This document shows, piece by piece, positions 1-34,624 of a stretch of DNA of 35,300 nucleotides (position 1 is the first letter of the stretch; each line of letters starts with the position of its first letter). Where the stretch lies: contig JAKLFY010000066.1 in assembly GCA_022710935.1 (NCBI GenBank), positions 1 to 35,300 of the forward strand, given 5' to 3'. The notes under the pieces are model-generated. The model searched no databases, was not told where the DNA came from, and saw only the letters and a list, made by a program, of their open reading frames with translations. A program made the position numbers and the translations under genes. Origin of the DNA: Verrucomicrobiota bacterium. Lineage in GTDB: Bacteria; Verrucomicrobiota; Verrucomicrobiia; Limisphaerales; J093.

Positions 1-310
1 CGTGAAACGCTTTCAGTTTGTTTCCATGCGCTTATAGGCGCACGCAAAACGCCGAAAAGCGACCCCGCCGTCGACTCCGCCGCTACTGGACTGCCCTGGG
101 AAAAGCGCTGGCTCCCCAAGCGGAACGCCAATCGAACTCTTCCAGAGACGCCGGCAAAGACAGTACATGCTGGAGCGGATAACCAAAAACATCATATCTC
201 GTTGCGGCAAAACAAACTATCAGGCGGTGACACGAGGCGGCGGGTCTGATAGTGTCAATTCATCATCCAATATTGGGCTCATCTCCGCAAGATCCCAGAG
301 GTTCCACGGC
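1..310. other. No gene recognised at the left edge
   Basis: This stretch precedes the first supported gene. A plus-strand frame beginning at base 2 encodes a dozen residues and stops near base 37; it could be the tail end of a gene lying to the left, but it is too short to judge. A minus-strand frame across 13-210 has no recognisable domain. An ATG at 167 is in frame with the TcmP gene, but the residues it would add resemble nothing in that family, so the stretch is treated as non-coding leader. Confidence 0.4.
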
Positions 311-1420: not shown

Positions 1421-2126
1421 ATCGAAGATTGAGTGGACAGAATCCACTTGGAATCCCGTCACTGGCTGTACGAAGGTCAGCCCTGGCTGCAAACACTGCT
1501 ATGCCGAACGAATGGCACAGCGACTGCAGGCGATGGGCCAACCTAACTATGAACGCGGATTTGAAGTCTCTCTCCACGAGCACACGCTTCGATTGCCGCT
1601 CAGCTGGAAAAAGCCTCAAGTGATTTTCGTCAATTCCATGAGTGATCTCTTCCACGAGGCAATTCCAGATTCCTTCGTGCATCGCGTCTTCGACGTGATG
1701 CGCAGCGCATCGTGGCACACCTTTCAAATCCTTACAAAGCGGGCTGAGCGACTGGATACTCTAGGACAGTCAATAGATTGGCCCCGCAATGTATGGATGG
1801 GCGTGAGCGTGGAAACGTCGTCGTATCTCTATCGCATCGATCATCTTCGCCAGACACCGGCACATGTTCGGTTCATCTCTTTCGAACCGCTCCTGGGGCC
1901 GCTCGGCACGATCGAGCTCAGCGGCATTCACTGGGCAATTGTTGGTGGCGAGTCCGGGCCCGGATCGAGGCCTATGGACCCAGAGTGGGTGAAAGACATA
2001 CGTGACCAGTGCTTGGCATCTGATGTTCCGTTCTTCTTTAAGCAGTGGGGCGGACCCAACAAGAAAAGAACGGGCCGCGCACTAGAAGGGCGCAATTGGG
2101 ATGGTATGCCCGCCATACCCGAGTAA
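1407..2126 (+). CDS. Gp37/Gp68-type three-Cys-motif protein (DUF5131 family)
   Basis: The 239-residue product starts at GTG 1407, with GAGGTG about eight bases upstream, and overlaps the end of tcmP. The N-terminus carries the family signature IEWTESTWNPVTGC followed by a C-x6-C-x2-C cluster (Cys21, Cys28, Cys31, with YAE just after). This could bind a metal or iron-sulfur cluster, as in radical-SAM-like proteins. Other conserved blocks are the SMSDLFHE region, FQILTKRAERL, WMGVSVE, FISFEPLLGP, IVGGESGPG and FFFKQWGG, all typical of the phage Gp37/Gp68 family. Length is normal for the family and the gene looks intact. Its molecular function is not established. The constant partnership with TcmP suggests the two work as one unit. 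Confidence 0.87.
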   Translation: MATNRSKIEWTESTWNPVTGCTKVSPGCKHCYAERMAQRLQAMGQPNYERGFEVSLHEHTLRLPLSWKKPQVIFVNSMSDLFHEAIPDSFVHRVFDVMRSASWHTFQILTKRAERLDTLGQSIDWPRNVWMGVSVETSSYLYRIDHLRQTPAHVRFISFEPLLGPLGTIELSGIHWAIVGGESGPGSRPMDPEWVKDIRDQCLASDVPFFFKQWGGPNKKRTGRALEGRNWDGMPAIPE

Positions 2127-2339
2127 AGGCATACGGTCAACGCCACGCGTTCGGCCGCCGCTGCAACCGCTGCTGACACGGCAGTCGTATGCTCAGGCGC
2201 CACCCGCCGCATGACGGACGGCCCCCAGCGATCCACAATGGCACGACGCATCGGGCACTGGACAAGGCGATGCGCATGCAATATCCTCTCAATTCGCGCT
2301 GGACCAGTCAGTTATCTAGATCCGGCTGCTCGTGGATCT

Positions 2340-8096: not shown

Positions 8097-8498
8097 TCAG
8101 CCCTTCCTTATTGCGGTTACCAGGTCTGGCAACACCTTTTCCGCCGACCGTCCAATGACGTAGCCACCTAGGCCAATCTCGACGATGTCCCAGAGCTTCA
8201 GGACCTCGGCCTCTCCCAGGTTCGGAGCCGACCACCCCAGCCACCGTGCCACAATCAGCGCCACGAAGGTGAGCATCGTAATCGGCCGCCAGGTCCGCTG
8301 CAGCCAACTCTGGCCCTGCGCCTCGGTCCTGACGACCTCGGCGGCCGCCCGTTCGATCTCGGACGAGCGTTCGAGAACGGCCGCCTGGAGCGCCTGCTGA
8401 AGCTCGATACGCTTCAATTCGTGCTCGGGATCGGGGAAGATCCGGTCCGCGACCGAACCCGCGACCTTCCCCAGAATCCCCAGAATCTCGCCAACCAT
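8097..8498 (-). CDS. Phage holin, GTA-type 3-TM family
   Basis: This is a predicted inner-membrane holin that would let the neighbouring endolysin reach the cell wall or time lysis. The 133-residue product from ATG 8498 (AAAGAGG upstream) begins with an amphipathic segment and a charged helix of roughly 45 residues (HELKRIELQQAL onward). It then has SWLQRTWRPITMLTFVALIV, which is the characteristic start of the GTA holin 3TM family, followed by a short periplasmic turn and a last hydrophobic segment (IVEIGLGGYVIGRSAEKV). It follows the endolysin gene by 11 bases in one operon, the usual lysis-cassette arrangement. Family assignment rests on this motif and context. Confidence 0.85.
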   Translation of the reverse strand: MVGEILGILGKVAGSVADRIFPDPEHELKRIELQQALQAAVLERSSEIERAAAEVVRTEAQGQSWLQRTWRPITMLTFVALIVARWLGWSAPNLGEAEVLKLWDIVEIGLGGYVIGRSAEKVLPDLVTAIRKG

Positions 8499-8509
8499 CG
8501 CGACCTCTT

Positions 8510-9004
8510 TCAGGCGTATGCCCGGTTGAGCCAGCCGCCCTGGAACACAATCTGATCTGCGCTCCGGGCGACCCGGAGCCTGTACTCCCCTGCCGCTTCG
8601 GATCGCAGCGCCGCCATCAACGCTGCCTGGTCGGCCCGCCTCGCGGCGCCACACGTCTCCGCCCCAAGACGACCGTCGAGTGCCACCCGTAGGCCGCAAG
8701 CATGAAGAGCCCGCTGCAGACAGGTCACCGCGGTCTGGTGTCCCAGGTTGACGGCCAGGTCGAAGACCTTGATGGCGATCACCTCGGGCAGGAACTCGTA
8801 CCGGTGCCCATGCCAGTAGCGCTCCCAGTAGACCTCGATCGCTTGGGCCCGGGTCAGGTTCTTGACGTCCAGGTCGGGATTCCAGCGCTGGGCGATTCCG
8901 AACCTGGTCGGTCCGCCGTGATCAACGGGGTTGTCGGTGTAGACGTCGCCTTCATGCTCGAGGACGACCTCGATCGCTCGGTCGAACAGTTCTCTGCTGG
9001 TCAC
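8510..9004 (-). CDS. Endolysin, glycoside hydrolase 108 family muramidase
   Basis: This enzyme would cleave peptidoglycan glycan strands to release phage. The 164-residue product starts at GTG 9004, preceded by AGGGAGG, and overlaps nothing. The N-terminal half carries the GH108 signature VLEHEGDVYTDNPVDHGGPT followed by RFGIAQ; Glu18 in the EGD triplet is the likely catalytic acid. VFDLAVNLGHQTAV and LQRALHACG fit the family's second, peptidoglycan-binding-like half. Length is typical of this family. There is no signal peptide, so it would depend on the adjacent holin. Position between a one-TM protein and the holin supports the lysis role. Confidence 0.9.
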   Translation of the reverse strand: MTSRELFDRAIEVVLEHEGDVYTDNPVDHGGPTRFGIAQRWNPDLDVKNLTRAQAIEVYWERYWHGHRYEFLPEVIAIKVFDLAVNLGHQTAVTCLQRALHACGLRVALDGRLGAETCGAARRADQAALMAALRSEAAGEYRLRVARSADQIVFQGGWLNRAYA

Positions 9005-10323: not shown

Positions 10324-11835
10324 TCAGCGGGTCTCGTGCACACTCGCGCTCTTCTTGTTCGAATCGTCGTCGCTGGCGACGTCATCAGGTTCGTCCTCCG
10401 GCTCCTTCTGGCTTGCCGCCACTTCACCGGAGACGCTGATTCCGTATTCCTCGGCCAACGCCTGCTCTCGGGCCAGCTCGGCGAAGACGTCCTCGATGTC
10501 CTCACCCTTCTCAGCCAGGAACCCCGTGCGCGTGCCCAGGCCGTTCTGGATCGAGATCACCGCGGCCCTGGCTTCCTTCTCGGGGTCGATCCACTGCCAG
10601 CCGCGCGGGCGATGCCGGACGGCCATGTAGCGGGATGGATCTCGGGAGGCGAGCTTCAACGTCCCGGTCAGCATCGCCATGCCGAGCCAGGCCGTGTACA
10701 GCGGCCGACGCCACATGTCGATGAAGTCCTGCTGGATGGACCGCCAATCGTCGCGCTCGACAAGGGCGAAGCTCCGCATGGTGGAGTAGCTGACGCCCTC
10801 AGCGTCGTTGGCGAGCACGTTGTAGAAGACGCTGAATCCCGAGGCGATCTTCCGCAGCATCTGCTTGATGAACGCTGGGAACTGCGCCGTCGGGTGGTCC
10901 GGCTCCCAGGCCTTGAACTCGTAGCCGTCAGGCACGATCTCAAATGTGCCGGGGTTGGCCTCCATGGTAGCGGGCCGGGGGTCGCTCGACAGATCCCCAG
11001 CCAACGAGTCGGCGCGCTTCTCGAACAGCCCCATCTTCGAGGCGCCGATCCTGGCGGCGACGGCCTCCGACTCCTCGTAGGCGTTCAGCATGTGCGCCGG
11101 GACCATGACCGCGTGGACCCAGGTTACCCCGCGGGTCTGGTTCACCCGTTCCGGGTCATACAGGTGGAGCATTTCGGTCGCGGGGACGAAGTAGCGCTCC
11201 CGCACCAGGTCGGTGCCCACGGCATTCCAGACCCAGTAGCCGACTGCACGCCCGATGGCGTCGATCTCGACGCCCATGCGGATCTCGTTCTGAGTGCCGC
11301 GGCGGGGCCGATTGAACGTCTCGTCGATCAGGTCGGCGTCGATCGCCTGCAGGGCCAGACCATGGGGATTGCCCTCGAACCCCCGCCACAGGCGGACGAA
11401 GGCCTCGCCGTCACAGGCCACGGTCTTGAGGATTAGCTTCTCGAAGCGGCGCAGGGTGAGCTTACCGTCAACGGTGACCGGCGAGTTGGCCCAGGCGTTC
11501 CAGGCGGCATCGATGGCGGTGTTGGCCTTCGTGTCCGGCTGGTCCCCGGCCCAAACCTGGGCCTGGAGCTTGATCCCCATCGGACCGATGACGTTGTTCA
11601 CCAGCAGCCGGAAGTAGCGTTTGACGTAGCTGTTGTTCCGGCCGAGCTCACGAGCCCGGGCGCGCAGCATCCGAATGTCGCCACGGATCTCGTCGTCCGC
11701 GGACCTGGCTTGGGCGATCCAGTCCAGCAACAGGCGGTGGACACCCGCCCCGTCGAAGGCGCCGTGCTGGCCGCGGATCTCGCGCCAGGCGAGTTGGATG
11801 GCGCGGCTGAGGCGCTGGTGGAGTGGGCGCGTCAT
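10324..11835 (-). CDS. Phage portal protein, lambda family
   Basis: The portal forms the dodecameric ring at one capsid vertex through which DNA is packaged and to which the tail joins. The 503-residue product starts at ATG 11835, which overlaps the stop of the upstream head gene in an ATGA. It has the lambda gpB-type N-terminus with RNNSYVKRYFRLLVNNVIGP, then VACDGEAFVRLWRG, LQAIDADLIDE, GWQWIDPEKEARA and an acidic, Lys/Ser-rich C-terminal tail. Length is normal for the family. It is on the strand opposite to the capsid gene, which is unusual since the two are normally adjacent and co-directional. An upstream in-frame start at 12057 lies inside the preceding gene and was rejected. Confidence 0.93.
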   Translation of the reverse strand: MTRPLHQRLSRAIQLAWREIRGQHGAFDGAGVHRLLLDWIAQARSADDEIRGDIRMLRARARELGRNNSYVKRYFRLLVNNVIGPMGIKLQAQVWAGDQPDTKANTAIDAAWNAWANSPVTVDGKLTLRRFEKLILKTVACDGEAFVRLWRGFEGNPHGLALQAIDADLIDETFNRPRRGTQNEIRMGVEIDAIGRAVGYWVWNAVGTDLVRERYFVPATEMLHLYDPERVNQTRGVTWVHAVMVPAHMLNAYEESEAVAARIGASKMGLFEKRADSLAGDLSSDPRPATMEANPGTFEIVPDGYEFKAWEPDHPTAQFPAFIKQMLRKIASGFSVFYNVLANDAEGVSYSTMRSFALVERDDWRSIQQDFIDMWRRPLYTAWLGMAMLTGTLKLASRDPSRYMAVRHRPRGWQWIDPEKEARAAVISIQNGLGTRTGFLAEKGEDIEDVFAELAREQALAEEYGISVSGEVAASQKEPEDEPDDVASDDDSNKKSASVHETR

Positions 11836-12389
11836 CGTTCGAACCCAGGGCCGGTGAACGACACGAGGACCGGCCGGGTGACGAAGCCGGGGTTCTTGAG
11901 GCTGGCCAGGCGGGACTCGAGGTTGGTCAGGAGGCCGACCGCCTCCTTGACCGGCATCTTCGCGACCACCCGACCGGCGATTTGGTAGCTCTCCATCCCA
12001 GCCGGCAGGCGGCCCTCGATGTGGGCGCGCAGCGCCACGACCGCCCGCTCGATCCACTCCTGTTCGCTGCCCTCGGTGGCCTCGGCCAGGTTAGGCAACA
12101 CGGTGACCGACCCCTTGGCGATCTCGTAGACCTCACCGCCGACGCCCGTGACCCGCTCGACCCACTTGTAGAATCCAGGGGCGAATCCGCCGGCCGTATC
12201 TGAGGCAGCGATGGTGACGACAAAGTCGTCTCCGTCCGCGGCAGCGGTCTTGGCCAGAACGCTCGCGCCGGCCAGATAGACCTGCAGCGTCCACCCTTCT
12301 GAGGCCGGAAAGTCGGCCAGCCGCCTGCGGTAGCAGACGGTCGTGCCGGCGGCGAACTGATCGGGGAGGTTTGCGAGTTCTTGTGCCAT
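11832..12389 (-). CDS. Phage head protein with gpW-like C-terminus
   Basis: The 185-residue product starts at ATG 12389. The N-terminal ~105 residues look like a beta-sandwich (LPDQFAAGTTVCYRRRLADF, GWTLQVYLAGAS, FVVTIAASDTAGGFAPGFYK). The C-terminal part is helical with ESYQIAGRVVAKMPVKEAVG and a final LLTNLESRLASL helix, which resembles the short gpW-type sequences found just upstream of portals in many siphoviruses. It is first in the minus-strand operon and overlaps the portal start, so a role in head completion or head-tail joining is likely. An alternative ATG at 12437 lies inside the operator-like palindrome and adds residues not seen in this family. Confidence 0.72.
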   Translation of the reverse strand: MAQELANLPDQFAAGTTVCYRRRLADFPASEGWTLQVYLAGASVLAKTAAADGDDFVVTIAASDTAGGFAPGFYKWVERVTGVGGEVYEIAKGSVTVLPNLAEATEGSEQEWIERAVVALRAHIEGRLPAGMESYQIAGRVVAKMPVKEAVGLLTNLESRLASLKNPGFVTRPVLVSFTGPGFER

Positions 12390-12418
12390 GCGCTCACGGT
12401 GCCACCCTGCGCAGAAGC

Positions 12419-12449
12419 CGACCAATCTAAATGACATTTAGATTGGTCG
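12419..12449. promoter_or_regulatory. Perfect palindrome in divergent promoter region (probable operator)
   Basis: Two 15-base arms (12419-12433 and 12435-12449; core GACCAATCTAAATG) are perfect inverted repeats around a single A at 12434. The element is AT-rich inside GC-rich phage DNA and lies between the start codons of the divergent portal-lysis operon (12389) and capsid-tail operon (12480). There is no T-run, and no gene ends here, so a terminator is unlikely. It best fits a dimeric repressor or activator site controlling both late operons. No confident -35 and -10 pair could be assigned. Confidence 0.7.
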
Positions 12450-12479
12450 AGCTTTCGCGAATGCAGCACTACTGGATGC

Positions 12480-14794: not shown

Positions 14795-15184
14795 ATGACT
14801 CACCTGCTCAATGCCCTGGCCCAGACCGTGGGCGCAGCGCTGGCCACCGCGGCCCGCCGCACGTCGACGCTGACCGGTACCGGCATCGACGTGCTCGAGT
14901 ACGAGGGCGTCGCCCTGGTGCTGCTGAACACCTCGGCCGGCACCGGAACCACTCCGACGCTCGACGTGAAGCTGCAGCATTCGGACGACAATTCGACGTT
15001 CAGTGATGTGACCAGTGGCGCGTTCTCCCAGGTCACCGACGTGGCCGGGACGGCCGGCGTCAAGGTCATGAAGCTGAACGTCTCGGACCTGAAGCGTTAC
15101 CTGCGCGTGGTCGGGACGATCGCCGGCACGACGCCGTCGTTCGACTTCGGCGTGGAGTTCGTGGGGATCAAGAAAGCGAGCTGA
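14795..15184 (+). CDS. Phage head-region structural protein (beta-sandwich)
   Basis: The 129-residue product starts at ATG 14795 behind GGGAGG. After an Ala-rich start it is all beta-like, with LDVKLQHSDDNSTFSDVTSG, VMKLNVSDLKRYLRVVGT and SFDFGVEFVG. This pattern is common in small conserved proteins between capsid and connector genes of siphoviruses, perhaps a decoration or stabilisation protein. The gene is co-directional with tight spacing on both sides. Specific function is not established. Confidence 0.72.
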   Translation: MTHLLNALAQTVGAALATAARRTSTLTGTGIDVLEYEGVALVLLNTSAGTGTTPTLDVKLQHSDDNSTFSDVTSGAFSQVTDVAGTAGVKVMKLNVSDLKRYLRVVGTIAGTTPSFDFGVEFVGIKKAS

Positions 15185-15187
15185 ACG

Positions 15188-15493
15188 ATGTACCTCGGCG
15201 AGTCCGACCTCACCGCGATCCTGGCCGACCTGGCCGCCGCCGGTGGCGGCGTCGAAGTCACTCTTGGCGGGGTCACGGTGACGGGGCTGCTCGACCGCGA
15301 GGCCATTGAGATCCTCGCCGGCGACATGCCGGCTGTCGTTGCCGCTGAGGAGATCGTCCACGTCCAGAGCGGGGCGCTGCCCGGCTTGCAATCGGGGGCC
15401 GCGATCACTGTCGGCGGGACGGCCTACGTCGTCCTGAAGGTCCTGCCCTACGGTGACGGGGCCATGGTCCGCGCCCTGCTGAGGACGCCATGA
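15188..15493 (+). CDS. Head-tail connector protein (lambda FII-like)
   Basis: The 101-residue product from ATG 15188 begins 3 bases after the preceding stop. It starts with MYLGESDLTAILADLA, has an acidic middle (EAIEILAGDMPAVVAAEE) and a beta-rich C-terminus (GAAITVGGTAYVVLKVLPYG). This length and pattern fit small head-tail joining proteins of the lambda FII / phage attachment type. Its order, just before the tail-terminator gene, supports the call, and the two overlap by four bases. Confidence 0.7.
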   Translation: MYLGESDLTAILADLAAAGGGVEVTLGGVTVTGLLDREAIEILAGDMPAVVAAEEIVHVQSGALPGLQSGAAITVGGTAYVVLKVLPYGDGAMVRALLRTP

Positions 15494-15960
15494 GCACGAT
15501 CCGGGAGCAGATCGTCTCGGCCGCCGTCCTGGCGCTGGCCACGGGAGCCCCCACGGGCGTCCCCACTCCGGTGCGGACGCGCCTGGACTCGCCTGGCGCG
15601 GACCAACTGCCGGCGCTGACGGTCTACCAGGGCGTCGAGACGGTCGAGTCGATGCGGGATGCCAAGACGGGCACGTCCAGCCGCGGCCCCATCGTGCGGC
15701 GGTCGGTGCTGCTGAGCGTCGAGGTTCTGACGAAGGCCGAGGCGTCCGAGGAGCCCGACAAGGCGGCGGACATGATCCTGGCCTGGGCTACGGGCTCACT
15801 CGCTGCCGCCGGCAGCTTCGGCGGCCTGGCCAACGGCCCTGCCGACGAGCTCGGCACGAAGTTCGAGTACGAGCAGTCCGAGACGTCGTTCTGCCGCGCC
15901 ACGCAGACGTTCCGAATCGAATACCAGACCCGCACGGGTGACGCGGAAAGCCTGACCTGA
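15490..15960 (+). CDS. Tail terminator-like protein
   Basis: The 156-residue product starts at ATG 15490, overlapping the connector stop. It has an N-terminal helix (TIREQIVSAAVLALATG), a beta strand with LPALTVYQGVETVE, a second helix (EEPDKAADMILAWATGSL) and a terminal strand set ending in CRATQTFRIEYQTR. This helix-sheet order is typical of lambda gpU / minor-tail-type terminator proteins that cap the tail tube and dock it to the head. It lies immediately before the tube gene, as expected. Assignment is by pattern and position. Confidence 0.75.
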   Translation: MSTIREQIVSAAVLALATGAPTGVPTPVRTRLDSPGADQLPALTVYQGVETVESMRDAKTGTSSRGPIVRRSVLLSVEVLTKAEASEEPDKAADMILAWATGSLAAAGSFGGLANGPADELGTKFEYEQSETSFCRATQTFRIEYQTRTGDAESLT

Positions 15961-15973
15961 CAGGGAGGAAACC

Positions 15974-16741
15974 ATGCCCGAGGTCGTCAACGGCAACAAC
16001 ATCCTGCTCGGCAGGGGCAAGATCTATTTCGACCGGTTCGATGCGAACGGCGTGCGAACCGGCGAGCTGTTCCTGGGCAACTGCCCGACCTTCGAGATCA
16101 CGCCCACGAGCGAAGACATCAAGAAGTACTCGAGCGCCGACAGGTCGGCCGACCTGATCGCCTCGGATGTGCTGCGCACGACGCTCGCCATCCGCATAGT
16201 CGGCGATGAGTTCTCCAAGGAGAACCTCGCCATGGCCCTGTTCGGCGACACGGCGACGCTGTCGCAGACGGGCGCCGCGGTCACGAACGAGGCCATCGCG
16301 GACGTGCTGCAGGGGCGGTACTACGCGCTGTCGAAGCGCCAGGTGAGTCTGGTCTCGGTGAGCGGGCCCAGCGGCACGCCCACCTACGTGGTGGACGACG
16401 ACTACAAGGTCGATGCCGTGACCGGCCGCATCTACATCGTCGAGGGCGGCGACATCACCGATGGCTCGGACATCGAGGTGGACTTCACCTTCGGAACGAT
16501 CGCGCTGCCGACCATCCGCGGCATGAACCAGACCTCGGTCAAGGGCTACCTGCGGTTCATCGGCGACCCGGCCCGCGGCCCCAAATACGAGTGCGAGATC
16601 TGGCGGGCGTCGCTGCGCGCTGACGGCGCCATCGGGTTCATCTCGGACGAGTACGCCAGCTTCACCATGGCCGGAGACATCGAGTCTGACGCCGCGAGCC
16701 ACCCGAACGAGCCGCACTACCGGCTGATCAGGATCGTGTGA
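15974..16741 (+). CDS. Major tail tube protein
   Basis: The 255-residue product from ATG 15974 (GGGAGG upstream) begins with NGNNILLGRGKIYFDRFDA and TGELFLGNCPTFEITPTSED, which is the usual N-terminus of siphovirus major tail proteins. It also has the conserved RFIGDPARGPKYECEIWRA stretch and a final SFTMAGDIESDA. It polymerises into the hollow tail tube. Position directly before the frameshifted chaperone pair and tape measure is canonical. Confidence 0.9.
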   Translation: MPEVVNGNNILLGRGKIYFDRFDANGVRTGELFLGNCPTFEITPTSEDIKKYSSADRSADLIASDVLRTTLAIRIVGDEFSKENLAMALFGDTATLSQTGAAVTNEAIADVLQGRYYALSKRQVSLVSVSGPSGTPTYVVDDDYKVDAVTGRIYIVEGGDITDGSDIEVDFTFGTIALPTIRGMNQTSVKGYLRFIGDPARGPKYECEIWRASLRADGAIGFISDEYASFTMAGDIESDAASHPNEPHYRLIRIV

Positions 16742-17265
16742 TGACGGAGAAGCACACCCTCGGCGGTCGCACGTTCCTGCCGGTGCACGAACCCACCGTT
16801 GAGCAGGACTTCCGGTTCCTGGCCCTGATCAAGCGGGCCCGGATCGACGAGGTCGTCATGCAGCCCGGCGAGCGCCCCGAGGCCTTCGCCCGGCGGCTGC
16901 TGGAAGTGACCATCGAAAGCGGCGTGATCCTGGATCTCCTCGGGTGCCTCCTGGTCCCGGAGGACACCGCACCCCGGGACCGGGACCCCGGGGAGGTCTG
17001 GACCTCTGAGGTAGGACGTGAGACCGCCCTGTTTCTGGGGCAACTGCGGGACCCCAAGGACAAAGCGGAGGTGCGCGGTCTGGTCCTGTCGCTGCTGGTC
17101 TCTTTTTTCGAGAGCGGGATCGTCTCTTTGTGGAATTCGACGACCTCCTTCGCCGAGGCGATCCCGAACCCCAACAGCAGTCAGGCACACCAGGCCGGTA
17201 CGGCCCCTGGACCGAGCTCGTCCGGGAGCTCGCCGCAGGGGACCACGACCGAGCCGAGCGGATAA
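16741..17265 (+). CDS. Tail assembly chaperone, short form (gpG-like)
   Basis: The 174-residue product starts at ATG 16741, sharing its A with the tube stop (TGATG); an in-frame GTG three bases earlier is also possible. The first ~125 residues are a compact, mostly helical domain (EQDFRFLALIKRARIDEV, VIESGVILDLLG-like region, LSLLVSFFES). The last ~35 are Ser/Thr/Pro-rich and lie opposite a second coding frame. In lambda-type phages gpG alone and a less abundant gpG-T frameshift product coat the tape measure during assembly. The slippery site T_TTT_TTC in the SFF codons and the open -1 frame after it support the same arrangement here. Confidence 0.8.
   Translation: MTEKHTLGGRTFLPVHEPTVEQDFRFLALIKRARIDEVVMQPGERPEAFARRLLEVTIESGVILDLLGCLLVPEDTAPRDRDPGEVWTSEVGRETALFLGQLRDPKDKAEVRGLVLSLLVSFFESGIVSLWNSTTSFAEAIPNPNSSQAHQAGTAPGPSSSGSSPQGTTTEPSG
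17103..17109 (+). other. Programmed -1 ribosomal frameshift site T_TTT_TTC
   Basis: The heptamer fits X_XXY_YYZ exactly in the gpG-like reading frame (codons TCT TTT TTC). After a one-base backward slip, reading continues at 17109 in a frame open to 17453 that encodes a gpT-like domain. This would give a 237-residue G-T fusion next to the tape-measure gene, as in lambda-type tails. Downstream RNA structure was not evaluated. Confidence 0.8.
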
Positions 17266-17453
17266 TCCGCTGGCCACTGCGGGTCGCCCTTGCCTCGTAC
17301 CGCCGTCTGATGAGAGAGCAGGCGCTGGCAGACTTCCGCCATCGGTACCTCTGCTGGTGTGTTCTGGCGCCACACAGTGCCAAGGGATCGCGGCCGCGCC
17401 CGCCGGCGCTGCCTGACATGCTCAGAGGAAGGTCCAGCGATGGCCACGCCTGA
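17109..17453 (+). CDS. Tail assembly chaperone extension (gpT-like), made by -1 frameshift
   Basis: This frame has no convincing start of its own and is expected only as the C-terminal 114 residues of a gpG-T fusion made at 17103-17109. It reads RERDRLFVEFDDLLRRGD, then GRYGPWTELVRELAAGDHDR, RIIRWPLRVALASYRRLM and a basic C-terminal tail. The charged, helical character is typical of gpT, which binds the tape measure. It overlaps the tape-measure start by 14 bases. A GTG at 17130 could in principle start it separately but has no ribosome site. Confidence 0.72.
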   Translation, partial: RERDRLFVEFDDLLRRGDPEPQQQSGTPGRYGPWTELVRELAAGDHDRAERIIRWPLRVALASYRRLMREQALADFRHRYLCWCVLAPHSAKGSRPRPPALPDMLRGRSSDGHA

Positions 17454-19998
17454 TGTCAGGGTCCGGTTGTCGGCCGAAGGCGTCGCCGAGGTCGTGGCCG
17501 CACTCAAGAAGGTCCAGGCCGAAGCCGAGAAGGCCTCGGCCAAGCAGTCGCATGGCTTCCTCGGTCTGAACCGTGTTCTGGGCTCCACCTCGGCACTTCT
17601 CAGCGGTCTGGGGGTCGCCCTCGGGGTGGGCCAGTTCCAGCAGTGGATCCGCTCTTCGGTGGACGCCGCCGACAAGATCGACGAGCTCGGCCAGACGATC
17701 GGCGCCTCAACTGAGAACCTGTCTGCCCTGCACATGCTCGCCCGCACGTCCGCTTCGAGCCTGGAGGAGATGGGCGCAGCCCTGGCCAAGCAGAACAAGT
17801 TCATCGGCGAGGCCGCCGCCGGAAACCCCAAGGCCACCGCCACGCTGCGTGACCTCGGGCTCACCCTGGCCGACTTCAAGGGCAAGGACGCGGTCCAGAT
17901 CTTCGAGTTGTTCGCCCAGCGGATCAGCGCGCTGCCCTCTCCGATCCAAAAGACCAAGACCGCCATGGACATCTTCGGGCGGTCCGGGGCGAATCTCGTG
18001 CCCACGATGACCGCGCTGGCCGACGAAGGGCTCGGTGCGGTCATCGAGCGCGCCCGCGAGCTGGGCGTCTTGATCGACAGCAATCTGGCTCAGTCCGCCG
18101 CACAGATGAACGACGACTTCGAGCTCCTGAAGGCCCAGAGCGAAGGTCTGGGTGCCCGGCTCGCCGCTGGCTTGGTTCCCCAGTTATCCCAGGCTCTGCA
18201 GATCATGAGCGGCGACCTCAAGCAGACGACCGAAGCCTGGGAACGCTTCGGCCAGGGCATTGGCCTGGTCGTGAAGTTCATCGTCGCGGTGGTGTCGTCC
18301 GCCTTTGACATCGTGGGGACCGCCCTGGCAATGATCATGATGCGGGTCGATGCCGGCGTGCGCGCGGCGTGGGCGCTGCTGCATGGCAATCTGGATGAGG
18401 CCAAGACCTACCTCAGGGCCGCCATGGTAGCCATCAGCGCCGAGCAGGCCGACCTGGAGGACCGCCTCAAGGCCCGATTCGAACTGACCGTCTCGACCCC
18501 GCCCAAGCCAGCCGCTCGCCCGAATGCGCCCACCGGGGACCTCCCGGAAGATCCGGCCGCACTCGCGGCCCAGCGCGCCCAGGCCATGCAGGCCACCCTT
18601 GATCGCGAACTGGCGCTCGTTCGCGCGGCAGCCAGCCTGCGTACAGCGGCCGAGAAGAGGGCGTTCGACGAGGGTCTCAAGGACGTTCAGGCCTACTACG
18701 CCGAGCGTCGCCGGATTGCCGAAGAAGCGCAGGCCAAGGAGATCGAGGTCCTCCAGCAGAAGCGCGCGCTGCTGGCCAGCGAGCCCGACCCCAGCCGCCG
18801 CAGCGACGAGCAGGGAAAGCTCGACGCCGAGATGGCCAAGGCCCGCCTCGAGTACGAAGACCAGACCGCCGTCCTCCTGGCTGAAGAGCGCGATGCGGTC
18901 CAGAAGCTCGCCGAGGAACGGCTCGCCCTGGAGAAGACTCTGCTCGAGGCCCAGGGCCGCCGGCACGAAGCCGCGCTCCTGGGCATCGACGAGGAGATCC
19001 GCCGGGCCGATCTGCTGCTCAAGAAGCAAGGTGCGTCCGATGCGGAGCGCGAGTCGACACTCGCCCGGATGCGCCGGTCGATGGAATCCGGCGCCAACTT
19101 CGACGATACCAAGCGCCAGGCCGAGGCCGCGTTGGCGGACCTTGACGCCACCCGCTCCGAGATCGAAGCCCGCGTCTCGGCGGGTCTGCTCTCACAGGTC
19201 GAGGGTGAACAGCAGATCCTGGCCATCGAAGCTGAGCGCCTGGTCGCCCTGCAGAACCTCGCGACTGCCCTGGAGCAGGCCGCCTGGGCCACCGGCGACC
19301 CGGAGCGGATCGCTCAGGCCCAGGGCTTCACTGCGGCTGTGCGCGACCTCGGGTTCGCCGTCGAAGGCGCTCGTGCATCGTTCGTGGCTTTCGGCAAGAC
19401 CGCCCTCGATAGTGGGCGCGACGCCCTGACCGAGTTCTTCGACACCGGTATCACCGGCGCGAAGTCCCTGGGAGACGCCTTCCGCAACCTGGCCCTGTCC
19501 ATCATCGCCGACCTCAAGCGCATGGCTGCCCAGCTTCTGGCCACGGCCATCATGAAGAAGATCGCCGGGGTGTTCAGCGATGGCGGCCAGGTCGGCGGCG
19601 CCGACAAGAAGGCTACCGGCGGCGTCCTGGGCGGCATCGGCACCGGCACGTCGGACTCGAACCTCGCCTGGTTCTCGCGCGGCGAGTACCTCGTGCGCGC
19701 CGCGGTGGTCCGCGAACCCGGTGTCCTGCGCCACCTCGAGGATCTGAACCGCCGTGGGATCCAGGCGCTGGTCCAGAACCCGGTCCTGATCGAAGCGCCC
19801 GTGCCCAGGTTCGCCGAAGGCGGCCTGGTCGACGGGCCCGCCCCCGCGGACCCGCAGGCCTCGAAGGACAGCCAGATGCTGATCGGCCTCGAAGAAGGCC
19901 TCATCCTGCGCCACCTTGAGAGCCCGGCTGGTCAGCGCATCCTTGTGAAAGCCATGGCCAAGAATCGCCGAGCGATCCGTTCGGCGTTGGGGACGTGA
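17440..19998 (+). CDS. Tail tape measure protein
   Basis: The 852-residue product starts at ATG 17440, behind AGAGGAAGG. It sets tail length and is ejected with DNA. The N-terminus (VRLSAEGVAEVVAALKKVQA) is followed by a domain common in tape measures (DELGQTIGASTENLSALHML, DIFGRSGANLVP). Hydrophobic segments lie near 275-300 (GLVVKFIVAVVSSAFDIVGT). A long Ala/Glu/Arg-rich coiled-coil region occupies about 370-610. The C-terminus has a helix region (SLGDAFRNLALSIIADLKRM) and Gly-rich repeats with FSRGEYLVRAAVV. The length is short for the class and would suggest a tail of roughly 120-130 nm using the usual 1.5 angstrom-per-residue rule. An upstream in-frame start at 17359 lies in the chaperone frame and was rejected. 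Confidence 0.93.
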   Translation: MATPDVRVRLSAEGVAEVVAALKKVQAEAEKASAKQSHGFLGLNRVLGSTSALLSGLGVALGVGQFQQWIRSSVDAADKIDELGQTIGASTENLSALHMLARTSASSLEEMGAALAKQNKFIGEAAAGNPKATATLRDLGLTLADFKGKDAVQIFELFAQRISALPSPIQKTKTAMDIFGRSGANLVPTMTALADEGLGAVIERARELGVLIDSNLAQSAAQMNDDFELLKAQSEGLGARLAAGLVPQLSQALQIMSGDLKQTTEAWERFGQGIGLVVKFIVAVVSSAFDIVGTALAMIMMRVDAGVRAAWALLHGNLDEAKTYLRAAMVAISAEQADLEDRLKARFELTVSTPPKPAARPNAPTGDLPEDPAALAAQRAQAMQATLDRELALVRAAASLRTAAEKRAFDEGLKDVQAYYAERRRIAEEAQAKEIEVLQQKRALLASEPDPSRRSDEQGKLDAEMAKARLEYEDQTAVLLAEERDAVQKLAEERLALEKTLLEAQGRRHEAALLGIDEEIRRADLLLKKQGASDAERESTLARMRRSMESGANFDDTKRQAEAALADLDATRSEIEARVSAGLLSQVEGEQQILAIEAERLVALQNLATALEQAAWATGDPERIAQAQGFTAAVRDLGFAVEGARASFVAFGKTALDSGRDALTEFFDTGITGAKSLGDAFRNLALSIIADLKRMAAQLLATAIMKKIAGVFSDGGQVGGADKKATGGVLGGIGTGTSDSNLAWFSRGEYLVRAAVVREPGVLRHLEDLNRRGIQALVQNPVLIEAPVPRFAEGGLVDGPAPADPQASKDSQMLIGLEEGLILRHLESPAGQRILVKAMAKNRRAIRSALGT

Positions 19999-20001
19999 GC
20001 G

Positions 20002-21639
20002 ATGTTCACCACCGGAACCGCGACCGACTACAACGACTTGGCCGAGCGGTTGCACACGTTCCTGACCGCCAAGGGCTCGGCCTTCGGGCTCGCCTACACG
20101 GGGACCGGCAATGGCAGCCTGACCGGTTACTCCGGCGGAGCGGCGTCGGTGGCCGAGACTTTCACCATCACGGCCACCTCTCCCACGTCCTTTGATGTGG
20201 TTGGCGGCGTCACGGGCTCGATCGGCCCTGCGACTGTCGGCACGCCCTTCGCCCATGCGACGCTGGAGTTCCTGATCACTGCCGGGGCGACGCCCTTTGT
20301 CGCGGGCGATCAGTTCACCCTGTCGACCGCGCCGAAGTGGACCAGCCTGCGCCGATCCCGCGGCTGCCGGCTCGTGTCCACCCAGGTCAACGAGGGCATC
20401 TACGCGGTCCAGAACATGGTGGACGGGAAGCTCGACATCTGGCCGTTCAACATCTCGGGCCTGACCAACCGCTCCTGGAACATCTACACGACGGTCACAC
20501 TTCCTCAAGAGGTGGAGATCACGTTCTTCGAGCCCGTGACCATCGCTGCCTACGAGTTGACCCTTCACGACACGACCGGCTCGGCTCCCGACGACTGGCA
20601 AATGCAGTACTGGGACGGCGCCGCGTGGGTGACGCTCGACACCCGGGTTGGGATCATCTTCTTCAATGGTATCCCCCAGACCTTTACCATCGCCGCGCCT
20701 GTGTCGGCGACCCGCTACCGGTGGCACATCACGGGTCTGCGCTACAGCCAGTGCCATATGGGTACGCTGCGCATGTTCCGGCAGGCCGACGGCGTCGATG
20801 CGTGCTTCCACGAATACGCCTGGATGGCCCCGGGCAATGATGGCACCTCCGAGATATTCGTCGGCATCCACGGCTTCGAGCGCCAGGACGCCGACTACCA
20901 CAACTGGGAGATCGCCGGCATGGACGGCTGGGCCTCAGGGTCCAGGCTCTACCAGCAGCCCGGCTTCCAGGGAAATCTCTACCTGCCGCTCTGGAACGCT
21001 GCCATCCCCTACTGGTTCATCGCGGACGGGCGCCGCGCCGTCGTGATCGCCAAGATCTCGAACCAGTACGAAATCGCGGTCTTCGGCTTGCTCGAACCCT
21101 ACTACTCCCCGAACCACTGGCCGTACCCGTTGGTCCTGGGCGGGTCGATGTCCCACGGCGAGTTATCGGCCTGGAACGACACGGACTACCGCTGGTCTCT
21201 GTCCGACAACCGCCACCGCATCTTCACCCACGCCGACGTCGGCGGCGCCCCGGTTAGCGCCGGCGAGCGCGATCCATGGGACACCCAACTCCGCGTTCGG
21301 AATCTCGACGGCGGCTGGAAAGCAATGGAAGGAACGCAGCTCGACGCCATTGGATCCACGCCCAGCACCTACTACCACATCATCTGGCCGACGCGGTGCG
21401 GCCTGTCGCTCCTCGATCCTGGCCCCGGCGCCACCTACGACCTATGGCCGGCAATGCTCATGCTCGGCGACGTCGGAGGCGGCTACAACACGCCGGGGCA
21501 GCTTCCGGGCATGGCGCTGGTCACCGGCCAGGGATTGACGGCCGAGACCCTGATCCGGCAGGGCGCCGTCGACTGGATCGTCATCCCCAACGTGTTCCGC
21601 AACGACCGCGACGACTTCTGCGCCGTGAGGTTGGACTGA
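20002..21639 (+). CDS. Distal tail protein with discoidin-like domain
   Basis: The 545-residue product starts at ATG 20002, three bases after the tape-measure stop. The N-terminal ~110 residues are Thr/Gly-rich beta structure. Residues ~115-260 have the pattern of an F5/8 type C (discoidin) or other galactose-binding-like sandwich (NMVDGKLDIWPFNISGLT, TLPQEVEITFFEPVTIAAYE, YRWHITGLRY). The remainder is aromatic-rich (FVGIHGFERQDADYHNWEIA, LYLPLWNAAIPYWFIADGRR) and resembles conserved distal-tail proteins of siphoviruses. Position right after the tape measure, plus a putative carbohydrate-binding fold, suggests a tail-tip or receptor-contact role. Confidence 0.7.
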   Translation: MFTTGTATDYNDLAERLHTFLTAKGSAFGLAYTGTGNGSLTGYSGGAASVAETFTITATSPTSFDVVGGVTGSIGPATVGTPFAHATLEFLITAGATPFVAGDQFTLSTAPKWTSLRRSRGCRLVSTQVNEGIYAVQNMVDGKLDIWPFNISGLTNRSWNIYTTVTLPQEVEITFFEPVTIAAYELTLHDTTGSAPDDWQMQYWDGAAWVTLDTRVGIIFFNGIPQTFTIAAPVSATRYRWHITGLRYSQCHMGTLRMFRQADGVDACFHEYAWMAPGNDGTSEIFVGIHGFERQDADYHNWEIAGMDGWASGSRLYQQPGFQGNLYLPLWNAAIPYWFIADGRRAVVIAKISNQYEIAVFGLLEPYYSPNHWPYPLVLGGSMSHGELSAWNDTDYRWSLSDNRHRIFTHADVGGAPVSAGERDPWDTQLRVRNLDGGWKAMEGTQLDAIGSTPSTYYHIIWPTRCGLSLLDPGPGATYDLWPAMLMLGDVGGGYNTPGQLPGMALVTGQGLTAETLIRQGAVDWIVIPNVFRNDRDDFCAVRLD

Positions 21640-22712
21640 TGGCCGCCGCGTACCAGACCGGGATCAGCAGTTCACCCACGAGTCTCCTGCAGGCCCTGGT
21701 GACCTGGCTCGCTGGCCAAGGCTGGACCGTGAATCAGTCCGAGCAGGACAGCGCCGGCTGGCGCGCCCACCTCGTGAAGGCGGGCAGTCTGCACCTGAAC
21801 CTGCGCGCAGCCGAGAACGAGCGGATCTGGAAGCGGGGCATCAGCACCTACCACGACGTGGGCAATGGTGGCTACGGGATCGGCCTGTATCTGGGGACTG
21901 GCTGGGATGGCGGAGCCGCCTGGCATGTCCAGGCGGGCGGGCCGATGCGGCCGTACGATCTGACGACGTCCGGCTGCGGCATGAACCTGCCCCAGGGCTC
22001 GGTGGCTGCGTACCACTTCTTCGACGACGGCAACGACCACATCACAGTCGTGGTCGAACGCGCGCCCGGGATCTTCTGCCACATGGGTTGGGGACCGTCC
22101 CTGGAGCGGGCGTCGTTGCCGGAACCGTTCCCCTACTTCTTCGCCAGCTCGAGCGCCAAGCTCAACACCGCCGAGACGGCCGACATCCTGACCGGCAACC
22201 GGCGCGGCATCGACCTGACCGCCTATCCGCCGATGTCCCACACGGACAAGGACTACTCGACGATCTCCGGCAGCACCGGTCTGACCCATTGCACCGCGTT
22301 TGTCCGCGTCGATGCGGCTTCGTTCTCTGGCCGCTGGATCGGCGACTGCAAGCCCGAGGACGAGGGCTTCGGCTGGACCGGCCGCCGCATGCGCGACGCT
22401 CTGAACAAGTGCACCGAGGCCCTGGGCGGCATGGAAGAGGACGAGTACGTCAACTACCAGTACCTGTGGAACAGCGGGACGAGCGGACCTGGTGAACGCA
22501 CGCTTCAGAGCGCATTCGGAGGCGCGCTGCTGCTGCCCTTGCACTGCTTCATGGAGGCTGAGCCGCAGAATCGCTGGGCCCCGATCGGCTACCCGCCCAC
22601 CGTGTTCTGGACCGAGGCTGTCGGCCACGGCTACAGCGCCGGCGACATCTACCAGCTGGGTGGCCAGAACTTCATGCTGTTCCCGTTCTTCGCTGTGAAG
22701 AAGGCCGTCTGA
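21639..22712 (+). CDS. Distal tail protein
   Basis: The 357-residue product starts at ATG 21639, sharing a base with the previous stop (TGATG). It opens with SPTSLLQALVTWLAGQGWTV and continues with LHLNLRAAENERIWKRGIS, HFFDDGNDHITVVVERAPG and IFCHMGWGPSLERAS; the last is a recurring pattern in phage tail-tip proteins of Proteobacterial siphoviruses. It ends in GQNFMLFPFFAVKKAV. No enzyme motif is seen. Like its neighbour it probably forms part of the tail-tip complex. A longer in-frame reading beginning at 21276 is a shadow of the upstream gene. Confidence 0.7.
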   Translation: MAAAYQTGISSSPTSLLQALVTWLAGQGWTVNQSEQDSAGWRAHLVKAGSLHLNLRAAENERIWKRGISTYHDVGNGGYGIGLYLGTGWDGGAAWHVQAGGPMRPYDLTTSGCGMNLPQGSVAAYHFFDDGNDHITVVVERAPGIFCHMGWGPSLERASLPEPFPYFFASSSAKLNTAETADILTGNRRGIDLTAYPPMSHTDKDYSTISGSTGLTHCTAFVRVDAASFSGRWIGDCKPEDEGFGWTGRRMRDALNKCTEALGGMEEDEYVNYQYLWNSGTSGPGERTLQSAFGGALLLPLHCFMEAEPQNRWAPIGYPPTVFWTEAVGHGYSAGDIYQLGGQNFMLFPFFAVKKAV

Positions 22713-23788
22713 TGGCCACCGCGGTTCGGGTCCCCGGCCCCTTGATCCTCGGCTCCGCGGCGGCGCTGTCGATCAACTTGACCTCGGCCGCTATCGACCC
22801 GATCAGCACGCGCCCTCTGCACGTTGTCGGGATGAACGCGGGCCCCCGCCTGGCTCTGGCCGACCCGCGGCCGGCTGCATTCGAGGTGGGCGGAGGCATT
22901 GCCCCAGTCCACGGCATGGCGGTTCTCGGCCGGATCCACGTGATCCCGCGCCGGCATGACCTTGGAGCGGTGGTCTCCGAACAGGAAGCCGAGGTCGAGG
23001 TCTGGAACGCCAACATCCAGCGCGCTCAGAGCCTCGAGGAGATCACGGTCGCCGGACCTGCTGGAATCGCGATCGTGGATCACCTTGGCCAGCCGGCGCA
23101 GTTCCCGGCATCGAGTTCGCAGGTCTACTTAGTCAAGGTCCTGAGCGACGGCGACGCCCTGATCGACAACCTGGTCACGTGGGTGTTCACCGGGCAGGAC
23201 CGCCTGGGGACCAACCTCCGGCTGCTGGGGTTCCGGCTGATCCCGTTCCCGTTCCCGCCGAACTGGGCTCAGCCGGTGACCGAGACCTTTGGGTTCATGA
23301 CCGACGTCATCGTCTCCTACCGGGGCATGGAACAGCGCATTCAGCTGCGCGCTGTGCCTGTGGGCACGATCCGCTACGCGACACTTCTGGACGATCTGCG
23401 CGACGCCCAGATGGCGGGCGCCATCATCTTCGGCAACCAGGCCCGGGCGTTCGGCGTCGGCCGCTGGCAGTTCCAGACCAGGCTGCTGCAAGACGCAAGC
23501 GCGGGCGACCACGACATCCTCTGCGACACCTCCGACATCCCGTTCGAGCCCGGCGGCATGGTCCTGCTCTGGACCGACCCCTACCACTGGGAGGTCCAGA
23601 CGATTGAGAGCGTGCTGCCGGACCGCGTGGTCCTGGACTTCGGCCTCATCCAGCCCTGGACCGCGGGGCTGACCATCGTCCTGCCGATCGTGGTCGGCCG
23701 GTTGTCGGATGACGAGGGGTTCACCTGGGACGCGCTCGCGATCGGTTCGACCGCGCTCACCTTCGACATCGACGGGTTCCGGCCATGA
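22712..23788 (+). CDS. Distal tail protein
   Basis: The 358-residue product starts at ATG 22712 in a TGATG overlap with the preceding gene. It is beta-rich throughout (ALSINLTSAAIDPI, EQEAEVEVWNANIQRAQSLE, VLLWTDPYHWEVQTIESVLP). RYRGMEQRIQLR-type sequence near the middle (VSYRGMEQRIQLRAVP) recalls the N-terminal ring domain of distal tail proteins. It precedes two GTA-like tail genes. No catalytic motif is visible. The call rests on operon position and general fold pattern. Confidence 0.68.
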   Translation: MATAVRVPGPLILGSAAALSINLTSAAIDPISTRPLHVVGMNAGPRLALADPRPAAFEVGGGIAPVHGMAVLGRIHVIPRRHDLGAVVSEQEAEVEVWNANIQRAQSLEEITVAGPAGIAIVDHLGQPAQFPASSSQVYLVKVLSDGDALIDNLVTWVFTGQDRLGTNLRLLGFRLIPFPFPPNWAQPVTETFGFMTDVIVSYRGMEQRIQLRAVPVGTIRYATLLDDLRDAQMAGAIIFGNQARAFGVGRWQFQTRLLQDASAGDHDILCDTSDIPFEPGGMVLLWTDPYHWEVQTIESVLPDRVVLDFGLIQPWTAGLTIVLPIVVGRLSDDEGFTWDALAIGSTALTFDIDGFRP

Positions 23789-24405
23789 CGTACCTCGGAT
23801 ACGACGTCCTGGAACTCAACTACAACCGCGTCGGGGCATTCGAGGAACGCCTCAAGCGGAAGTTCGTGCTGTTGAGCTCGAAGACCGGCCGGCGCATCGC
23901 TGACGAACAGGCCCCAGCCCCCGCGGCAATGCGTCCGTTCACCTGGACCGCGCTCGGCCGCGACGAGATCACGGCCATGCGCGCCTTCCTCGATGCCCGC
24001 AAGGGGCGCGCGGTCCCGTTCTGGCTGCCCAGCTTCCAGTGGGACCTCGCCCTAGCCGAGGACATCGCCCAGAACCAGTCCGGCGCGACGGTCAGGTGGG
24101 TCAGGTACAAGCAGCAGATGTGGGGCACGACCGGAGCCCGACGCCACCTTGCGCTCTGGTCGCTCGGCAACGGCGCCATGGAATACTGCCGGATCACCGG
24201 GGCCACCGATCCGGCCAACTACCTGACCGAGACCCTCACGCTCGACCCGGTGGCCCAGCGCGACTACTCGCGCGCGCAGACCGTGCTGTCGTTCCTGAAG
24301 TTCTGCCGCCTCGATGAAGACCGCATCGAGGTCTCCTACCCGAGCCCTCAGGTGGCTGAGGCCACGATCCGGGTCCGTGAACTCCCCCTGGAGGCGCCGC
24401 TGTGA
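23785..24405 (+). CDS. Tail-tip hub-region protein
   Basis: The 206-residue product starts at ATG 23785, overlapping the previous stop by four bases. Typical sequence of small phage minor tail proteins is seen: RPFTWTALGRDEITAMRAFL followed by DARKGRAVPFWLPSFQWDLA. The C-terminus (TVLSFLKFCRLDEDRIEVSY) is beta-rich. In many siphoviruses a protein of this type directly precedes a BR0599-type gene, as it does here. It probably links the distal tail ring to the hub. Confidence 0.7.
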   Translation: MTYLGYDVLELNYNRVGAFEERLKRKFVLLSSKTGRRIADEQAPAPAAMRPFTWTALGRDEITAMRAFLDARKGRAVPFWLPSFQWDLALAEDIAQNQSGATVRWVRYKQQMWGTTGARRHLALWSLGNGAMEYCRITGATDPANYLTETLTLDPVAQRDYSRAQTVLSFLKFCRLDEDRIEVSYPSPQVAEATIRVRELPLEAPL

Positions 24406-25202
24406 CCTACGACGCCAGAGAGAAGAGCCGCTATCTGGGCCAGCCCATCGAGGGGTTCCGGTTCACCCAGGGCAGCAACATGTGGTTCTACACCTCGGCG
24501 GATCGGGCGATCACGCTGCCGGCTGGCGTGTTCGCCCCGGAAGCCATCGTGCGCAGCGAGCTCGACTTCTCCCAGGAGGACACCGGCGAGACCATCGACC
24601 TGACACTGCCGCGCGCCAACCCAGTGCCCGCGCTGTTCATCGGCGACCTGCCGTCCACCCCCGTCTGGGTGACGATCTACCGGGCCCACCGCGGCGAAGA
24701 GTCGCTCGCGGTGACCATCTTCAGCGGCAAGGTCGTCCGCGCGCGGTTCGAGGAGTCCGAGGCCATTCTCACCGGCGCCAGCCTGATGGCCATGCTGGCC
24801 CGCACGGTGCCAATCCTGGCCATGCAGACCCCCTGCAACCACGTGCTGTACTCGTCGGCGTGCGGCGCCGACCCCGCCGCCTGCCGCGACCTGGTCTCGG
24901 TCACGTCGGTCACGGGCGCGACCGTGGTCTCCAACGGGTTTGCCCTGCGCCCCGACCAGTGGTTCCGCGGAGGGCGTCTCGAGTCCACCACCGGCGAAAC
25001 CCGCTTCATCGTCAGCCACCAGGGCAACACCGTCACCCTGATGTCGCCCATGCCGGGCCTGACGTCATTGGACCAGGTCAGGGCCCACTGGGGCTGCGAC
25101 CACCTCGAGGCCACCTGCCGGGACAAATTCGGCAATCTCACAAACCACCTGGGATGGTCTCGCCTGCCGGGCCGCAATCCCTTCTCGGGGAGGATCGACT
25201 GA
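24402..25202 (+). CDS. BR0599 / DUF2163-type tail protein
   Basis: The 266-residue product starts at GTG 24402, in a GTGA overlap with the preceding gene. It has the N-terminal beta region of DUF2163 (FRFTQGSNMWFYTSADRAIT, ELDFSQEDTGETIDLTLP) and the family's C-terminal Cys pattern: QTPCNHVLYSSACGADPAAC in the middle and WGCDHLEATCRDKFGNLTNH then PGRNPFSG at the end. The cysteines may bind metal or form disulfides in the tail hub. This family is shared by gene transfer agents and siphoviruses and lies directly before a J-like gene. Confidence 0.85.
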   Translation: MTYDAREKSRYLGQPIEGFRFTQGSNMWFYTSADRAITLPAGVFAPEAIVRSELDFSQEDTGETIDLTLPRANPVPALFIGDLPSTPVWVTIYRAHRGEESLAVTIFSGKVVRARFEESEAILTGASLMAMLARTVPILAMQTPCNHVLYSSACGADPAACRDLVSVTSVTGATVVSNGFALRPDQWFRGGRLESTTGETRFIVSHQGNTVTLMSPMPGLTSLDQVRAHWGCDHLEATCRDKFGNLTNHLGWSRLPGRNPFSGRID

Positions 25203-34120: not shown

Positions 34121-34321
34121 TTCCCGGGCACTGTCGTCGAGATTCGCTGGTCAGAATATCAGATCAGCCCCGGCTTGAAATCACCCTGATCTTACCATTT
34201 CACCCCTGCGTGGTCAAAACCCCCGTTCCGCCCCGACACATCAATCACCCACGGGGTACATAACCAAGAGAAGGACACTCTGCGCTTTAGGCAGGGCCCA
34301 GGTTTCGCCCCGGGAGTGACG
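34121..34321. other. Boundary between cassette array and resumed phage genes
   Basis: No gene is supported here. An integron integrase and attI site would be expected on this side of a complete integron because the cassettes read leftward, but the next gene is an HTH protein in the opposite direction. Sequence GC rises toward 34270. No strong promoter or terminator was recognised. Confidence 0.4.
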
Positions 34322-34624
34322 ATGTTCCGCCGCGAGGCGCTTGAACTCGGCAGGTACAAGCGCGATCCCGACCGCTGGCAGACCGAGTTCGGCCGCTGGG
34401 TGGCCGATTTCGGCGTGCCCCGGATCGTCGCCGTCTTGGGCCAGGACCCGGACCTGCGTGTCACGAAACACGCCGTCTACCACTGGCTGAAGGGGTACGC
34501 ACCGCGTCCCGACAGGGCGCTGGCCCTCGTCGAGATGTCCCAGGGCCGCCTCACGCTCGATGCCATCTACCAGCACGGCCGGCAGATGAGGCAGTCCGAG
34601 GGCGACGCCGGAGGCCCGCAGTGA
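34322..34624 (+). CDS. Small HTH DNA-binding protein (phage)
   Basis: The 100-residue product starts at ATG 34322, with GGGAG at a good distance; an in-frame GTG at 34316 is less favoured because that ribosome site would be too close. The middle part reads as a helix-turn-helix (FGVPRIVAVLGQDPDLRVTK then HAVYHWLKGYAPRPDRALAL), close in style to Cro/YdaS-like regulators, followed by VEMSQGRLTLDAIYQH. It overlaps the next gene by four bases. It might regulate phage genes, including through the 12434-centred palindrome, or act as a small packaging protein. The codon use and GC match the phage operons. Confidence 0.68.
   Translation: MFRREALELGRYKRDPDRWQTEFGRWVADFGVPRIVAVLGQDPDLRVTKHAVYHWLKGYAPRPDRALALVEMSQGRLTLDAIYQHGRQMRQSEGDAGGPQ

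Follow-up and report, generated by a model that had tools for sequence, protein, structure and literature searches.

A single-copy 31-bp palindrome between divergent phage late operons in Verrucomicrobiota, probably a shared operator

The window (the whole 35,300-nucleotide stretch analyzed here) contains two divergent late operons of a phage element, with a 31-bp palindrome between them. The minus-strand operon runs from a head-tail joining gene through a portal gene, three unnamed genes and an endolysin gene to a holin gene. The plus-strand operon runs from the capsid gene through genes for head completion, the major tail protein, the tape measure and further tail proteins to a tail tip gene that ends at position 27652. 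From the center of the palindrome at position 12434, the start codons of the two first genes are 45 nt (minus strand, 12389) and 46 nt (plus strand, 12480) away. The features discussed below are as follows:

8097..8699, minus strand: holin of the GTA_holin_3TM type (profile match)
8510..9004, minus strand: endolysin (phrog_315, E 8e-36)
10324..12057, minus strand: portal protein ORF, putative start (phrog_21, E 8e-100)
11832..12389, minus strand: head-tail joining protein, opening the minus late operon (phrog_5774, E 5e-25)
12396..12401, minus strand: CACCGT, conserved -10-like block (YANNNT), its T 7 nt before the start codon
12419..12449, no strand: 31-bp dyad, proposed shared operator (perfect 15-1-15; symmetric change across lineages)
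12420..12425, minus strand: TTGGTC, mirror hexamer, possibly -35-like, of the presumed minus promoter
12443..12448, plus strand: TTGGTC at the outer end of the right arm, possible -35-like hexamer of the presumed plus promoter
12467..12473, plus strand: CACTACT, conserved -10-like block (YANNNNT), its T 7 nt before the start codon
12480..14459, plus strand: major capsid protein with protease domain, opening the plus late operon (phrog_617, E 7e-82)
14795..27652, plus strand: head-completion and tail genes through the tail tip protein (profile matches)
34316..34624, plus strand: small helix-turn-helix (HTH) protein, candidate dyad binder (predicted HTH fold, family conservation)

Because the minus-strand genes that could be named encode head-tail joining, portal, endolysin, and holin proteins, the label "head/lysis" that the original prediction gave to this operon is correct. 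The unnamed proteins of the operon were considered as regulators and rejected: by eye they look secreted or membrane-bound, and they have no family match. At the other end of the late region, the tip gene is directly followed by a small HTH gene and a minor tail gene in the records of three relatives (L083, L084, and L085), whereas in the window 6.7 kb of cargo with lower G+C content separates the tip gene from the HTH gene. Contigs that bear the HTH gene continue with a ParB-like/methyltransferase protein, the small and large terminase subunits, and a convergent early operon that encodes a Prim-Pol, a helicase, exonuclease VIII, and a sigma factor. With a serine recombinase on one relative and several copies in one assembly, the elements have the look of integrated or integrating DNA.

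The cargo of the window (positions 1-6804 and 27717-34263) includes type I restriction genes, a PDC-M30 candidate defence pair, and YaaC-like, GNAT, and PH-domain genes. Beside a sister element on contig C11 of the same assembly (L101, 686-16702), there are HmaA/HmaB and TmtA-like proteins. Imperfect repeats are located among small minus-strand genes of the window (31474-31524, 33395-33445, 32516-32560, and 33407-33451), two of them ending in GTTAGGC; we presume that they may be integron attC-type sites.

The palindrome, CGACCAATCTAAATG-A-CATTTAGATTGGTCG, is exact over positions 12419-12449, with 15-base arms around one central base, and only 12 of its 31 bases (39 per cent) are G or C in a stretch of about 65 per cent G+C, just as the original prediction had described an AT-rich site between divergent operons. 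Its further claim that such a palindrome is improbable by chance also holds: when the window was resampled 200 times with a first-order Markov model, the longest perfect arm (loop of 0-4) measured 7-12 bp, and the 15-bp arms of the dyad exceed chance expectation. No second dyad of matching quality is present in the window. A scan for further copies, which had been proposed alongside the prediction, found neither copies nor half-sites above chance in the window and five relatives, and ATTTAGNTTGGT, allowing at most one mismatch, is absent from nine contigs taken from the other half of the phages. The site is single-copy per phage, and the one extra copy in the whole assembly lies at the same junction of the sister element on C11, from which the window copy differs by one outer base. 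A search for distant DNA matches among cultured phages gave none. Another perfect 15-1-15 dyad, CGGGTCCAAATCGGG-G-CCCGATTTGGACCCG, lies past the endolysin gene at L090 8529-8559 (record G387), among many short GCGTCA-type repeats.

Relatives were gathered by searches with a 25-mer core of the palindrome, with a 21-mer, and with the capsid protein, and a search with the HTH protein added one more. The 25-mer core occurs in eight IMG/VR contigs and the 21-mer in four genome contigs, at the same junction every time. In total, we read 29 homologous junctions (the window, C11, 4 genome contigs, and 23 IMG/VR contigs), and the dyad is retained in 28 of them. The exception, L067 (52 per cent capsid identity to L029), has a divergent junction about 88 bp wide that lacks a dyad, and similar blocks (CACTTT and CACCCT) precede both of its start codons; it was omitted from the dyad alignments. 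The letters of the site vary among the relatives. The center bases can be GAC, CAT, or TAG; one group carries CCAACCTAAATG/CATTTAGTTTGG with one pair broken; and the more distant lineages L029, L086, L083, and L084 have new letters at the same place, those of L029, CCGCCAAGACAAATC-A-GATTTGTCTTGGCGG, forming a perfect dyad.

Distances to the flanking genes were counted on 26 junctions, with L067 and with L081 and L082 (identical to L083 here) left out. The minus start codon lies 44-46 nt from the center in all 26, and the plus start codon lies at 46 nt in 22, the four without an ATG there being L029, L086, L083, and L084. From the center outward, information content is 1.41 and 1.46 bits in the two arms, falls to 0.80 and 0.53 bits over the next 14 nt, and rises again at offsets 30-41 to 0.92 bits on the plus side and 1.28 bits on the minus side.

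The two arms of the dyad change together. Relative to the window, and counting over 15 pairs, L029 carries six compensated double changes and no broken pair, L086 eight and two, L083 six and four, and L084 five and five, with the qualification that two other places nearby score equal to the dyad of L084; the L146 record has one broken pair. Covariation was quantified on 12 chosen rows (11 distinct), from which near-identical rows and L146 were left out. In this set, 87.9 per cent of 165 cells are paired, as opposed to 24-41 per cent when the arms are slid by 1-3 columns. Two-sided change occurs at 10 of the 15 pairs (shuffled mean 6.4; 10 or more in 3 of 500 shuffles) and in 25 cells (10.0 when shuffled), with a covariation score of 0.406 (0.161 when shuffled), all against shuffles that ignore the relatedness of the sequences. 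The same 12 rows contain 13 further pair types, no excess over the shuffled 12.9. The invariant positions outline a half-site, C-N-A-N4-A-A(-T) from the outer to the inner end. One-sided change is found at none of the 15 pairs in this set. An RNA stem is expected to change via G-U pairs, and the alignment therefore offers no wobble path of the kind that such a stem would allow. As far as aligned sequences can tell, this symmetric turnover points to a two-fold symmetric DNA-binding protein rather than to an RNA hairpin or a terminator.

The second conserved block, 32-39 nt from the center of the dyad, resembles a -10 element. Among ten chosen lineage representatives, [C/T]A-N3/4-T starts at offsets 32-34 on 18 of 20 sides, compared with a mean of 1.8 and a maximum of 7 in 2000 within-side shuffles, a contrast to be read with the facts that the pattern was noticed before it was counted and that the sequences share descent. 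Minus sides carry the 6-mer form of the block and plus sides the 7-mer form; the two exceptions, the plus sides of L086 and L084, have GATATT at 33-38. A search for sigma-70 consensus promoters returned no match here. A TTGGTC hexamer at the outer end of each arm precedes the -10-like block by 18-19 nt, and its equivalents in relatives read TTGGCG, TCGACG, and TTGCCG. We infer that the blocks are the -10 elements of two divergent promoters. Their spacing, with the T of the block about 7 nt before the start codon, recurs in all 26 junctions on the minus side and in 22 of them on the plus side, counting sequence spacing alone, and suggests that the late messages are probably leaderless or nearly so. 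Since the plus start codon departs from 46 nt in 4 of 26 junctions, a leaderless start would not be general on the plus side. Akkermansia, of the class Verrucomicrobiae, is recorded as having few Shine-Dalgarno sites (PMC10783764).

Taken together, we consider it probable, at roughly 70 per cent, that the palindrome is a single-copy operator for a symmetric protein, placed at the center of two back-to-back late promoters and setting both operons together. A dimer or a dimer of dimers would bind the palindrome, with one operator per genome, and each arm would reach into the -35 region of one late promoter. Each promoter would use the -10-like block 32-39 nt off center, and in the window RNA would start at or near the start codon. 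One binding event could thereby set both the head-joining, portal, and lysis operon and the capsid and tail operon, presumably by activation rather than repression. Candidate binders would be the phage HTH protein, another regulator, or RNA polymerase with a phage sigma factor. The core of the original prediction, a shared symmetric operator for two divergent late promoters, is well supported by these comparisons. Its dimeric regulator for both operons gains from a symmetric, dimer-type site in 28 of 29 junctions and from arms that co-change.

Several known systems resemble parts of this arrangement. In phage Mu, a dimeric activator (protein C) binds just upstream of the -35 region of late promoters (PMC4461284), much as proposed here; however, Mu has several separate one-way late promoters, whereas here one symmetric site per genome serves two divergent operons. 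No C/Mor homolog was found among the scanned proteins of the window and its relatives, whose contigs are partial genomes. The divergent and bidirectional promoters described by Warman, Grainger, and colleagues likewise yield back-to-back transcripts from a symmetric region, but bidirectional promoters in that work share a -10 element and have start sites mostly 10-23 bp apart (PMC12825309). Here, separate -10-like blocks are about 67-77 bp apart, and the start codons, or presumed starts, about 91 bp. Under the definition in PMC12825309, the junction would therefore fall outside bidirectional promoters and be read as a divergent promoter pair with a shared central site. Regulators of the Cro/CI/YdaS type offer a further likeness in their dyad operators, and YdaS and the N-terminal domain (NTD) of TP901-1 CI are the nearest structures to the HTH model. 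Such regulators, however, act on multiple short operators at an immunity region, in contrast to the one 31-bp dyad at the late junction. The site would be of a known kind, a symmetric operator, and new in that one such operator is shared by two divergent phage late promoters. Literature searches found no published description of such a site, which is weak evidence of absence.

The HTH protein that the original prediction named as a candidate regulator remains one, with mixed evidence. Its model has a mean pLDDT of 81; a Foldseek search of the model against the PDB gave nothing at E 0.001 or better, and a second-look structural alignment placed YdaS first (Z 5.5), followed by the TP901-1 CI NTD (Z 4.8), both modest values. 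The gene is conserved in the family, with three copies (C223, C63, and C81) and two partial ones in its own assembly and 22 IMG/VR loci. The broken partial copies (L112 8372-8543 and L113 4954-5097) lie just upstream of the intact gene on C63 and C81 and look as if they had been duplicated by cargo exchange. The protein differs where dyads differ: six same-sample contig pairs with window-like dyads, assumed to belong to the same phage, carry the helix NQAVYEWL(Q/R)G, and the L083, L084, and L146 records combine a different dyad with an HTH gene that has other helices. Identity by descent could alone produce this match across lineages. Against the protein as reader, the predicted recognition helix of the window is KHAVYHWLKG where most close relatives have NQAVYEWL(Q/R)G, yet the window dyad is unchanged, and the gene is placed within the late region, outside the early operon and any immunity region. 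Upstream of the HTH gene, a conserved promoter-like CGACAC..CGGGGTA.ATA is present in the window (about 34250-34300) and in L120, L132, and L133; a different block, with CCCCCCCTTT, is common to other relatives.

If a Cro/CI-like protein such as this one read the dyad, the site might instead be a repressor operator that silences both late operons in the prophage. The integrated look of the elements, the resemblance of the model to YdaS and TP901-1 CI, and the overlap of the site with the presumed -35 regions, at which a bound protein could obstruct polymerase, are all compatible with repression. We nevertheless think this unlikely, given that the HTH gene sits among late genes with a promoter-like sequence of its own, that its helix is altered in the window next to an unaltered site, and that phage late operons are more usually off through the absence of an activator.

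A second candidate beside the HTH protein, encoded outside the window, is a sigma factor of 203 aa in the early operon of a relative (L139:4563-5174, contig 3300033145_003439), where it adjoins the exonuclease VIII, helicase, and Prim-Pol genes. Over residues 16-171 it matches TIGR02937 at 61.8 bits (cut-off 42.9), and it also matches PF04542; with regions 2 to 4 above the curated cut-off, it belongs to the sigma-70 family (NCBIfam sigma-70/ECF). A search by sequence found no PDB relative at E 0.1. A homolog, 66-67 per cent identical, is encoded on contig C25 of the window's own assembly (C25:7859-8479, L150) with matching gene order and neighbors, and because the gene order matches, C25 is likely part of the same element as the window. 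With such a factor, the dyad arms and -10-like blocks could simply be two head-to-head sigma-factor promoters that need no separate regulator. The [C]ANNNT block is indeed unlike the housekeeping TANNNT, and a TTGNCG-like hexamer in the outer arm lies 18-19 nt before it. However, a simple -35 hexamer has no room for offsets 2-4 of the inner arm or for the three central bases, perfect 15-bp arms exceed the needs of two -35 elements, and the arm letters turn over between lineages where the -10-like block stays almost constant. When viral contigs were scanned with the sigma protein, no second contig was found, most of them ending before that gene. On balance, promoters of this kind without a regulator appear quite improbable.

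A role of the palindrome as a hairpin in the RNA of the two leaders, in stability, attenuation, or translational control, is very improbable. The intergenic strand does fold at -38.9 kcal/mol (z -5.1), as any perfect palindrome must, but beyond the lack of one-sided wobble-type change at the 15 pairs, the broken pairs (L021-type, L083, L084, and L086) are mostly C-T, C-C, A-A, and A-G, and messages that start near the start codons would leave the dyad untranscribed. The hairpin was rejected, despite its strong fold, on the pattern of arm changes. An intrinsic terminator, the case that the original prediction had set against itself, is not supported either: there is no T-run on either side and no terminator-like match. 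A packaging, recombination, or telomere-resolution site is barely credible, for although protelomerases use long perfect palindromes and the capsid relatives include the telomere phages VP882 and phiHAP-1, this is an odd one-base-centered 31-mer at a fixed distance from two starts between structural promoters, the terminase and recombinase that were found sit elsewhere, and no contig among those read ends at the dyad.

Returning to the shared operator, the gene order of relatives suggests how its setting arose. Rhodobacter, Roseobacter, and Synechococcus phages (RcCronus, vB_DshS-R4C, and S-LBS1) share the same head genes, with 28-30 per cent identity in capsid/protease, but theirs form a one-way head-joining, portal, and capsid operon, whereas the joining/portal block is inverted here, giving rise to the divergent junction in which the dyad lies. 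In two cultured phages with a homologous capsid, head-joining (or its neighbor), portal, and capsid genes all point in one direction, and portal and capsid are co-directional in all nine distant relatives from the phylum in which both genes matched. An inversion of the joining/portal block is therefore the likely origin of the junction. A bolder proposal, which we regard as speculative and rather unlikely, is that the single site is a master late switch at which an early sigma factor, with or without a dimeric protein, fires two leaderless promoters, and that its letters have been replaced on four or more occasions together with the reader protein while the geometry stayed fixed, leaving related phages in one host mutually deaf.

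If the shared-operator reading is true, one 31-bp symmetric site would control nearly all particle genes of these phages, with its spacing fixed and its letters free, and would form a compact divergent promoter with matched output. It would also explain how the inversion of the portal block became workable. The family would then provide a natural series of operators and regulators for studying shifts in DNA recognition, and the analysis indicates a phage-encoded sigma factor in a little-studied bacterial group.
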